Program-made: the position numbers and the translations under genes
NCBI RefSeq assembly: GCF_000682695.1
Contig: NZ_AWFG01000030.1
Coordinates: 62,001 to 126,000, forward strand
Source of the DNA: Hyphomonas chukchiensis
Lineage (GTDB): Bacteria; Pseudomonadota; Alphaproteobacteria; Caulobacterales; Hyphomonadaceae
Direction: 5' to 3'
DNA: 64,000 bases
Shown: positions 29,027-47,851 of the stretch, in pieces
Layout: every line of letters starts with the position of its first letter
Position numbering within the stretch: position 1 is the stretch's first letter
The notes under the pieces: generated by a model
What the model saw: only the letters and a program-made list of their open reading frames with translations
Told to the model about the DNA's origin: nothing
The model's database searches: none

Positions 29027-29662
29027 TCAGGCGGCGCTGTCTACCGGCTGTGGAATTGACCCGCTCAGCCGCTTGATGTCGGAGAGCAATTCGTCCAGGC
29101 CGCGTGTCGCCTGCGACAGTTCGCTTGGCCCGCCGGCCGTGCTGTGGCCATTCTCGGCCTGGGTCATTGTGTGCAGCACGGCGTCGCGTGCCCGGCTGAC
29201 GCGGCTCTTGATTGTCCCGGGCGAGCAGTCGCAGATCAGTCCGGCTTCCTCATAGGTAAAGCCGGCGGCAACCACGAGGATGATAGCGTCGCGCTGGGCC
29301 TGGGGAAGGGTATCGATGGCGGCCTGGAGGACACGGAAGTCCGAACGCGCTTCCAGGCTCTCATTGGCCAGCAGCGTGCGTTCAGCCTGTTCGGGCTCCA
29401 GTTCGGTCGAGCGCCAGGCCCGGCGTGTGTGCTGGTAGAATTCGTTGCGAAGGATCCGGAACAGCCAGGGGCGCATTGCCGCGCCGGGCTGGAATCGATC
29501 AATGGCGGCCCAGGCGTTCAGGCAGGTTTCCTGCACGAGGTCATCGGCCAGATCCCGGTTCCGGCAAAGACTGCGCGCAAACGCCCTGAGCTCCGGCAGA
29601 AGGCGCTCAAGCTCATCTGCGAATCCGAAAGATGTATTATTGTCTTCCTCGACGATACTCAT
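29027..29662 (-). CDS. ecfG: ECF sigma factor, EcfG-type general stress sigma
   Basis: A 211-residue sigma factor. Region 2 is LERLLPELRAFARSLCRNRD-LADDLVQETCLNAW and PWLFRILRNEFYQHTRR; region 4 is LPQAQRDAIILVVAAGFTYEEAGLICDCSPGTIKSRVSRAR, close to EcfG/SigT. The ATG at 29662 has AAGGATTTGG upstream; further upstream codons are open but do not match the family. The C-terminal tail (about 40 residues) is longer than usual. It is divergent from phyR. Two perfect EcfG-type promoters (45746-45771 and 45805-45829) lie elsewhere in the window. Confidence 0.88.
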   Translation of the reverse strand: MSIVEEDNNTSFGFADELERLLPELRAFARSLCRNRDLADDLVQETCLNAWAAIDRFQPGAAMRPWLFRILRNEFYQHTRRAWRSTELEPEQAERTLLANESLEARSDFRVLQAAIDTLPQAQRDAIILVVAAGFTYEEAGLICDCSPGTIKSRVSRARDAVLHTMTQAENGHSTAGGPSELSQATRGLDELLSDIKRLSGSIPQPVDSAA

Positions 29663-29801: not shown

Positions 29802-29930
29802 TTCTAAAAGGACCCTCTGACGCCCTGTATCATATCCAAACGTTTGTTAAGTTTCCGTCTCCAAAGTATGTCATTTAGGATATAAAAAGCAGTTGAGCTC
29901 CTCACCCTTTGACCAATGCTAGGCCAAAAG

Positions 29931-30671
29931 ATGCTTTCAGATCTGATTGAATCAGAACTACCTTACCTTCGGCGCTATGCGCGCGCGGTTGTTGGCTCAC
30001 AGGAAGTGGGCGACCAGCTTGTATCCTCAATGATCGAAACACGCCTGCTGCCGCAGGTTGCCGCCGGCAACACCGACTTTGACCGGACCTGGCTCTACAA
30101 AAGCCTCGACGCGGTCCTTGCAGAGCCCGTTGAGGCGTCCCGCGCCGATGATATCCTTGTGAAGATGGGCGCTGTCGAGCGGCGGGCCCTCTTGCTCGCA
30201 TCCGTCGAGGCCTTTGCGGTGGAGGATATCGCCGTCATCCTCGACATGACTGTGCCCGAGGTCGAGCGCGCGCTCGGCGATGCAGAGGCCTCGCTCATGA
30301 AGGCCCTCGCCACACGCGTCCTCATCATCGAGGATGAAGCCATGATCGCGGCGCACCTGTCGGAAATTGTCGCATCGCTCGGACACACCCCCGTGGCTTT
30401 CGCCACAACCCATGCCGACGCCGTGGCAAAGGCCAGGCAGGAGACATTCGGTCTGATCCTGGCGGATATACGCCTCGCCGACGGATCCTCGGGAGTCGAT
30501 GCCGTCCAGGATATCCGCAAGACCTGGAACGGCCCTGTCATCTTCATCACCGCCTATCCGGAATCCCTGCTCACCGGCGAGGGGCAGGAGCCCGTCTTCC
30601 TGATTCCGACGCCCTTCCGGGCGGAACTCGTGAAGGCCGTCATCAGCCAGGCCCTGATCGGGCGCCACTGA
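29931..30671 (+). CDS. phyR: General stress response regulator PhyR
   Basis: About 246 residues: an N-terminal sigma-factor-like output domain (LPYLRRYARAVVGSQEVGD, then VERRALLLASVEAFAVEDIA) fused to a C-terminal receiver domain (VLIIEDEAMIAAHL, phospho-acceptor Asp in LILADIRLADG at about residue 179, and VIFITAYPE). When phosphorylated, PhyR sequesters the anti-sigma factor NepR and frees EcfG. I prefer the ATG at 29931 (MLSDLIE) to that at 29916. It is divergent from ecfG, with no nepR seen between them. Confidence 0.93.
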   Translation: MLSDLIESELPYLRRYARAVVGSQEVGDQLVSSMIETRLLPQVAAGNTDFDRTWLYKSLDAVLAEPVEASRADDILVKMGAVERRALLLASVEAFAVEDIAVILDMTVPEVERALGDAEASLMKALATRVLIIEDEAMIAAHLSEIVASLGHTPVAFATTHADAVAKARQETFGLILADIRLADGSSGVDAVQDIRKTWNGPVIFITAYPESLLTGEGQEPVFLIPTPFRAELVKAVISQALIGRH

Positions 30672-44271: not shown

Positions 44272-44844
44272 ATGGCGAAGCCAAACGGATCGTCCCAGAC
44301 GATCATCATCAAGAAATACGCAAATCGGCGTCTCTACGACACATCCACGTCGTCTTACGTGACGCTGGAGCACCTGTCGGAACTCGTCCGTGAGGGCCGG
44401 GATTTCGAGGTGCGCGATGCCAAATCGGGAGAGGATCTCACCCGTCAGGTGCTCACGCAGATCATTTTCGAGCAGGAAACAAAGGGCGAAGGCGCCCTTC
44501 CGCTGAACTTCCTGCGCAAGCTGATCGGATTCTATGGCGGTGGCGGACAGGCTTTCCTGCCGGCCTTCCTCGACATGTCCATGAACAGCTTTGCCGACAC
44601 GCAGAAGGAATGGACCAAGGCAGCCAATCCCATGTCGCTGTTCGAAAAACAGGCGCGCCGGAACATGGCCATGTTCGAGCAGGGCATGAAAATGTTCATG
44701 CCCACGCTCTACAAGGCGTCCCAGAACGAGAAACCCGCCCCGACAAATCCGATCATGGATTTCCAGGCCGAGGCGCTCGCCGCCATGCAGGCCCAGATGC
44801 AGGCCATCCAGGACCAGCTGAAAGACCTTGCGAAAAAGGACTAG
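44272..44844 (+). CDS. phaR: Polyhydroxyalkanoate synthesis repressor PhaR
   Basis: A 190-residue PHB-sensing repressor. The conserved DNA-binding N-terminal domain is KKYANRRLYDTSTSSYVTLEHLSELVREGRDFEVRDAKSGEDLTR (shown in the usual order) and the second domain follows with LTQIIFEQE and LIGFYGGGGQAFLPAFLDMSMNSF. The C-terminal part is coiled-coil and Gln-rich. It probably represses phaB and phasin genes when no granule is present. Confidence 0.93.
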   Translation: MAKPNGSSQTIIIKKYANRRLYDTSTSSYVTLEHLSELVREGRDFEVRDAKSGEDLTRQVLTQIIFEQETKGEGALPLNFLRKLIGFYGGGGQAFLPAFLDMSMNSFADTQKEWTKAANPMSLFEKQARRNMAMFEQGMKMFMPTLYKASQNEKPAPTNPIMDFQAEALAAMQAQMQAIQDQLKDLAKKD

Positions 44845-45745: not shown

Positions 45746-45771
45746 AACGAAGCGTCACCGCGGATCGTTCC
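45746..45771 (-). promoter_or_regulatory. EcfG-type promoter of the stress SDR
   Basis: On the minus strand GGAAC (45771-45767), 17 bases, CGTT (45749-45746): a perfect match to GGAAC-N16/17-CGTT. It is 39 bases upstream of the SDR start. Confidence 0.8.
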
Positions 45772-45804
45772 GCCCGCGCCGATGCAGATGTTAGCGATAA
45801 AGGC

Positions 45805-45829
45805 GGAACCCCTGAGGGGTGCTCACGTT
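45805..45829 (+). promoter_or_regulatory. EcfG-type promoter of otsA
   Basis: GGAAC (45805-45809), 16 bases, CGTT (45826-45829): a perfect match to the EcfG consensus, 33 bases upstream of the otsA GTG. Confidence 0.82.
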
Positions 45830-47272: not shown

Positions 47273-47851
47273 CTAGACGTCGCCTGCGACGCCAAAGTCG
47301 CGCCGGGCCGACACGATGGTCACGACCACACCGGCCAGCACGTCCAGCAATGTCATCGACATCAGGATGAAGAAGGTCGAGGTCGCAAAGTTCGGCAGCA
47401 GCAGGAACTGGATCAGGCAGACGATGAACAGCATCATCGACACGGCATGATTGATGATGGTCGACGTGCCCGTGCTGGTCGATTTCAGGATTTCCAGGAA
47501 CAGGAAGATCACCGCCACCAGCAGGATCGCGTCGCCCTTGGTCAGCATCCAGTCCACGCCGGAAATCATCGGCAGGTGCATGAACGGCCCGTTGAGCAGG
47601 TTGAGGATCGGCGCCACGGTCGAGCGCACAAGCTCGCCCTGCGCATTGACCGTCTCGACAGCGCCGCCAAAGCCCAGCGCCAGAAGATTGTACAGCACTA
47701 CCGGAATGACCAGCAGCGGAAAGATCCCGAAAATTACGCGCATGAAGTACCCCTTTTTATTCGAGTCGTTTGAAGCGTGTTTCTCACGCTTCTGGCGTTC
47801 CATTTTGGCGACCGCTGCTCCCGCCAGCGCGATCTTCGTGTCTTTGTTCAT
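47273..47851 (-). CDS. Membrane protein of unknown function
   Basis: A 192-residue protein with four hydrophobic segments (about residues 37-60, 97-125, 130-150 and 155-180), preceded by a Lys-rich cytoplasmic start. I do not recognise a family. It may be localised by its charged N-terminus; the periplasmic loop between helices 1 and 2 contains NAQGELVRSTVAPI. It is convergent with otsA, seven bases from its stop. Confidence 0.6.
   Translation of the reverse strand: MNKDTKIALAGAAVAKMERQKREKHASNDSNKKGYFMRVIFGIFPLLVIPVVLYNLLALGFGGAVETVNAQGELVRSTVAPILNLLNGPFMHLPMISGVDWMLTKGDAILLVAVIFLFLEILKSTSTGTSTIINHAVSMMLFIVCLIQFLLLPNFATSTFFILMSMTLLDVLAGVVVTIVSARRDFGVAGDV

Follow-up and report, generated by a model that had tools for sequence, protein, structure and literature searches.

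Partner switching among PhyR, NepR, and the sigma factor EcfG is established in the alphaproteobacterial general stress response (GSR), and control of otsA and otsB by EcfG has been shown experimentally in Bradyrhizobium diazoefficiens (PMC8092242, available sections). There, as proposed below for Hyphomonas, trehalose-6-phosphate pathway genes stand under EcfG, and they are linked to osmoprotection; otsA and otsB, however, share one EcfG-controlled locus, whereas the Hyphomonas gene described here, otsA2, has no adjacent otsB and is divergent from a gene for a short-chain dehydrogenase/reductase (SDR). In Sphingomonas melonis Fr1, GGAAC-N17-20-GTT is enriched within 100 bp of starts and trehalose genes belong to the regulon, but the route is that of malto-oligosyltrehalose, and the trehalose genes listed in the available part of the report score low for the motif (PMC6599016). 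Sphingopyxis granuli TFA carries GGAAC-N16-CGTT before nepR2-ecfG1 and, like Hyphomonas, a second ecfG that has neither the consensus promoter nor a nepR of its own; this ecfG2 is divergent from nepR2ecfG1, whereas the second ecfG of Hyphomonas is on a different contig from the core copy and adjoins a phyR paralog (PMC7083833). According to the same text, GGAAC and GCAAC are the two commonest −35 boxes of S. granuli, CGTT is followed in frequency by TGTT, CATT, and GGTT among the 14 −10 boxes found, and ecnAB is a direct GSR target. At least two EcfG copies are reported for half of the completed alphaproteobacterial genomes (PMC3892343, in the portion available). A search made mostly outside the subscription literature found no published account of such promoters or of otsA2 in Hyphomonas, and, among the papers listed, none that joins EcfG with both otsA and a short-chain dehydrogenase. 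EcfG control of otsA is already known from B. diazoefficiens; the insertion site and the small protein described below appear to be new.

The window, a 64-kb stretch of the Hyphomonas chukchiensis genome (G000), contains only two exact matches to GGAAC-N16/17-CGTT, both in the 156-nt gap between the SDR gene and otsA2 (Table 1). Both face outward. The SDR-side site ends 39 nt before the SDR ATG and the otsA-side site 33 nt before the otsA2 GTG. The first-pass annotation, which had placed two such sites here with spacers of 17 and 16 bases and distances of 33 to 39 bases, was exact on all these points. Box sequence, spacing, distance, and orientation to the start are at both sites those of EcfG (ECF15) promoters, and the same genome encodes PhyR, NepR, and EcfG together at a locus on contig C25.

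Table 1. Features of the SDR-otsA2 locus and related genes of H. chukchiensis (window positions unless a contig is given).
Feature	Position	Strand	Basis or detail
ecfG paralog, not the core copy, without adjacent nepR	29027..29662	-	Family match; 45% identical to the C25 copy
phyR paralog, not the core copy	29916..30671	+	Family match; 42% identical to the C25 copy
phaR, left border of the insertion	44272..44844	+	TIGR01848, 150.9 bits, over cut-off
Short-chain dehydrogenase/reductase, PRK06701-like, 283 aa	44855..45706	-	Profile and structure matches
Predicted SDR-side EcfG-type promoter	45746..45771	-	GGAAC 45771-45767, N17, CGTT 45749-45746
Predicted otsA2-side EcfG-type promoter	45805..45829	+	GGAAC 45805-45809, N16, CGTT 45826-45829
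otsA2, second trehalose-6-phosphate synthase paralog, GT20, 467 aa	45863..47266	+	Profile and alignment matches
192-aa gene, right border of the insertion	47273..47851	-	No Pfam or NCBIfam match; membrane protein by eye
RKTL small-protein gene	G000:C41:33516-33785 (L036:1208-1477)	-	Exact EcfG motif 23 nt before ATG

By number alone the motif is unremarkable. The window's two matches compare with 0.86 expected, a count that is not significant because 21 of 100 shuffles reached two or more, and the whole genome holds 52 sites against 67 for the reversed pattern used as a control. Bulk overrepresentation was therefore rejected, window and genome counts both being at chance level. Position told a different story in the genome-wide scan that the first-pass annotation had proposed: sites were enriched before starts, though not in number. 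A called same-strand start followed within 10 to 65 nt at 20 of the 52 real and 3 of the 67 control sites (Fisher 3e-6), and 29/52 real compared with 12/67 control sites were intergenic. The 20 distances spanned 22 to 56 nt, with 12 falling between 28 and 37. Genes around all real and control sites were called with one home-made caller, its hexamer model trained on the window; the window's own two sites are in neither the 20 nor the 29, since the caller extended otsA2 upstream across the gap and scored them as inside genes. At the control rate, the expectation for any one start is 2.7e-4 sites within a 31-nt upstream band, and for a specified divergent gene pair to have a promoter on each side it is about 7e-8. 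An exact counterpart was present in H. oceanitis (G002) for 17 of 20 promoter-like, 7 of 10 other intergenic, and 8 of 20 in-gene sites, again excluding the window's two. Genes downstream of exact sites include an Entericidin-family gene and genes for a DUF1328-like small protein (assigned by eye) and a DUF883-like small protein (Pfam hit below cut-off). Presence of the same exact motif before both the core nepR-ecfG and the Entericidin-family gene favors reading it as an EcfG promoter.

The pair is retained in full in one close relative and in part in another. In H. oceanitis, whose otsA2 is 95% identical, both sites are intact; 9 of the 16 otsA-side spacer positions have changed while the nine box bases have not, and the SDR-side spacer has a single change in its 17 positions. 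In G028 (otsA2 82% identical), the SDR side keeps an exact site with N16 that is separated from the SDR gene by an additional 95-aa gene, and the otsA-side site reads GGAAC-N17-CGTA. Window-type otsA (at least 60% identity) was found in nine of 61 genomes. The strict pattern precedes otsA2 in two of the nine, and a relaxed element, G[GC]AAC-N16/17 followed by CGTT, CGTA, AGTT, or TGTT, lies 33 to 52 nt before the start in all nine, compared with a mean of 0.076 genomes of nine and a maximum of 2 in 1,000 rounds of dinucleotide shuffling; the 9/9 and the shuffle figures are flattering, because the relaxed pattern was defined after inspection of the sequences. The box frequencies of S. granuli give independent support for GCAAC and TGTT, but CGTA and AGTT are not among its −10 boxes named in the accessible text (PMC7083833). 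As background, 224 other upstream regions of H. chukchiensis were scanned, of which 4 had the relaxed element at 20 to 65 nt. In the otsA2 neighborhoods, which were kept apart from this background, 7 of 91 upstream regions had it, six of them belonging to otsA2, the SDR gene, or the small gene. Among 11 SDR relatives, the strict element stands directly before the SDR gene only in G000 and G002. Two more, G007 and G034, in which the SDR gene is convergent with otsA2, have GCAAC-N16-CATT 37 nt before the SDR start; three have variants at 83 to 163 nt, and four have no element by pattern directly before the gene, including G028 with its exact site beyond the small gene.

In G019, G024, and G025, the presumed otsA2 promoter, 44 to 52 nt upstream, takes the form of an inverted repeat, GCAAC-N17-GTTGC; in G003 the right half of the corresponding repeat reads GTTGG. 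The palindromes of G019 and G025 are matched by the pattern on both strands. Such a repeat may double as operator and promoter.

The first-pass annotation had also drawn attention to ecfG and phyR within the window. Both are genuine family members, but they are paralogs without nepR, and the core set is on C25, where the order is HisKA_2 kinase gene, ecfG, nepR, exact motif, phyR; the motif lies 337 nt before ecfG, with nepR in between. The NepR profile had two hits in the genome, on C25 and C19, and none beside the window's ecfG and phyR, and no EcfG-type element was found in the 253-nt gap between these two genes. Since the window copies lack both a nepR and an intervening EcfG-type element, and the core set lies on C25, their presence in the same window was rejected as evidence for regulation of the pair, on which either EcfG copy may act. 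The C19 NepR-like hit (G000:C19:160804-160893, 29.8 bits, over the Pfam cut-off) is away from both ecfG genes. In G004, G031, G032, G035, and G036, a pattern match revealed a NepR-like stretch near the window-type ecfG. Against 3n0r, Caulobacter PhyR, the C25 PhyR scored 311 bits and the window copy 175. The receiver of the window copy reads IPTPF; in 3n0r and in the C25 copy, the residue preceding PF is a lysine. Loss of this lysine was dropped as a trait of window-type PhyR, the threonine being found in G000 only versus lysine in G028 and G011, the two relatives compared (G002 was unmatched by the search string).

How the pair is read by the transcription machinery admits several explanations. 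That the window's EcfG paralog (ecfG2) mainly reads it, making otsA2 and the SDR gene a subregulon apart from the core GSR, seems to us a possible but rather unlikely arrangement. ecfG2 is 16 kb from the pair and is 86 to 87% identical in G028 and G002, which have the same arrangement, and canonical and noncanonical EcfG of Rhizobium etli control unique gene sets according to the available part of PMC3892343. The recognition stretch GTIKSRVSRAR is nevertheless identical in both EcfG copies, the boxes of the pair are those found upstream of the core nepR-ecfG, and ecfG2 relatives (63 to 69% identity) occur in genomes without otsA2, such as G004, G005, and G011. GGAAC-like −35 boxes are common to many extracytoplasmic function (ECF) sigma factors, so overlap at this box would allow the sites to belong to another such factor, the GSR acting only indirectly; several other window-type otsA genes indeed have GCAAC with different −10 boxes. 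We regard this as improbable, because the combination of a CGTT −10 box with N16/17 is the EcfG form reported for S. granuli and R. etli in the accessible portions of PMC7083833 and PMC3892343, and it also stands upstream of the core nepR-ecfG of H. chukchiensis.

Functionless chance matches would be compatible with the window count, given how often shuffled sequence yields two, but they would hardly be expected to face outward at promoter distance in one divergent gap, with the very low probability calculated above for a given pair, or to be kept together in H. oceanitis despite the altered otsA-side spacer; we consider chance highly implausible. The sites are most likely divergent EcfG-dependent promoters of the SDR gene and otsA2, situated within an accessory stress cassette. 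EcfG control of both genes is the best reading of promoter sequence, spacing, orientation, conservation in close relatives, and the presence of PhyR-NepR-EcfG in the genome, and to this extent the direct control proposed in the first-pass annotation is upheld. Its extension to trehalose synthesis at large needs narrowing, in that the gene is a second otsA paralog and not the cell's only trehalose-6-phosphate synthase gene.

OtsA2 matched TIGR02400, the OtsA equivalog, over nearly the full profile with 490.4 bits, below the cut-off of 564.85, and was accepted by Pfam GT20 with 392.4 bits. In the alignment to 5tvg it retains the catalytic-region motifs of OtsA. By these motifs OtsA2, a divergent paralog, probably works like OtsA and would make trehalose-6-phosphate. 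The SDR, labeled YhdF-like in the first-pass annotation, a name that no search here returned, has PRK06701 and PDB 3i3o as its best models. With 395.9 bits over nearly the full PRK06701 profile (NF005214), below the cut-off of 413, it is by sequence a near relative of that subfamily, not filed as a member.

The other otsA of the genome (C74:3430), 44% identical to otsA2, is followed by Trehalose_PPase and Glyco_hydro_15 genes in an otsA-otsB-GH15 cluster. EcfG control of this canonical otsA-otsB in H. chukchiensis was considered and rejected, no exact site being found in the 600 nt upstream of the C74 otsA; likewise, the canonical otsA genes of G002 and G028 have no exact motif within 600 nt upstream. 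Upstream regions were examined for 37 of 43 OtsA hits (nine otsA2 and 28 canonical), with six left out (G037, G041, G049, two in G053, and G057). In 7 of the 28 canonical genes (G031, G032, G018, G027, G036, G035, and G006), an exact site lies 168 to 172 nt before the aligned start; in these genomes the motif therefore sits at the other paralog, and EcfG control may apply to different otsA paralogs in different species of the genus. G007 and G034 yielded no OtsA hit other than the window-type gene. There it is divergent from Trehalose_PPase and Glyco_hydro_15 genes in G007 and, by eye, in G034 alike.

The SDR-otsA2 pair of H. chukchiensis fills an insertion bordered by phaR and the 192-aa gene. 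In 19 of 24 genomes these two genes meet tail to tail with 22 to 79 nt separating them, the gap mostly holding a terminator-like hairpin (by eye). In the other five the gap is wider: 461 nt in G011 and 541 nt in G033, each with only the small RKTL gene described below, carrying an exact EcfG site; 2,722 nt in G028, with the SDR gene, the small RKTL gene, and otsA2; and 2,428 nt in G000 and G002, with the SDR gene and otsA2. In G003, G019, and G007, otsA2 is located elsewhere and the phaR site is empty. The search for the border gene covered 37 of the 61 genomes, supplemented by the known loci of G028 and G033, and G013, from which no phaR was recovered, is outside the 24. In a 24-tip tree of the two border proteins, which does not include G024, G025, and G034, the five genomes with a filled site form one clade with G014, whose site is empty (support 0.94). 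Because the site is empty elsewhere, the promoters either arrived with the inserted DNA or arose inside it; they do not go back to older promoters of the border genes. The G000 SDR promoter scored 9.0, 6.5, and 6.0 against the small-gene promoters of G011, G033, and G028, respectively; the maximum of a null of 18 unrelated promoters was 7.5, so that the G033 and G028 scores fall inside it. Descent of the SDR promoter from the G011/G033 small-gene promoter is suggested, supported by place and barely by sequence.

A short protein of ∼85 aa starting with M-x-RKTL recurs around these genes. Its gene adjoins otsA2 in G003, G019, G025, and G024, precedes the SDR gene in G028, and is apart from otsA2 in G000 and G002. 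A search with an alignment of these seven sequences recovered it in 12 of 61 genomes, namely all nine with otsA2 plus G033, G014, and G011; within the genus, this amounts to 9/9 otsA2 genomes versus 3/28 others (Fisher 1.8e-6, a value that ignores kinship). The hits are 1.8 kb from the SDR gene in G007 and 6.4 kb in G034. The protein had no Pfam match at E 1, and all NCBIfam matches were far under cut-off. Among 5.8 billion proteins there were 41 matching clusters, most without an organism name and those named assigned to Hyphomonas, Alphaproteobacteria, or Pseudomonadota. An EcfG-type element lies 23 to 24 nt before the ATG in 9 of the 12 genomes, in its strict form in six (G000, G002, G028, G033, G014, and G011). 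G024 has no such element by pattern, and G007 and G034, in which the script did not locate the start codon, are counted outside the nine.

In the proposed mechanism, stress would cause phosphorylated PhyR to take NepR away from EcfG, and EcfG-RNA polymerase would then transcribe the SDR gene to the left and otsA2 to the right. Induction of otsA2 would raise trehalose-6-phosphate, OtsB of the C74 cluster would complete the pathway, and the NAD(P)-dependent reductase would be raised together with OtsA2. Sigma usage, the inducing stress, the enzyme activities, and coinduction of the SDR gene and otsA2 are points that we infer from sequence. The accessory stress cassette would comprise otsA2, the SDR gene, and, in relatives, the ∼85-aa orphan protein, as members with their own EcfG-type promoters. 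More tentatively, these three may constitute a portable general-stress cassette of Hyphomonas, each member usually behind its own EcfG-type promoter, that settles at different chromosomal sites and carries its regulation along, with the small protein as a new GSR effector working with trehalose; we hold this broader proposal to be conceivable, if somewhat doubtful.

With this locus, direct EcfG control is predicted also for a second trehalose-6-phosphate synthase of Hyphomonas, one that is lineage-specific. It suggests that the stress regulon may grow by inserted genes that bring their promoters along, not by promoters evolving in place. The RKTL small protein, present in all nine otsA2 genomes, is a candidate stress effector, and together with the cassette it is the part most worth following.
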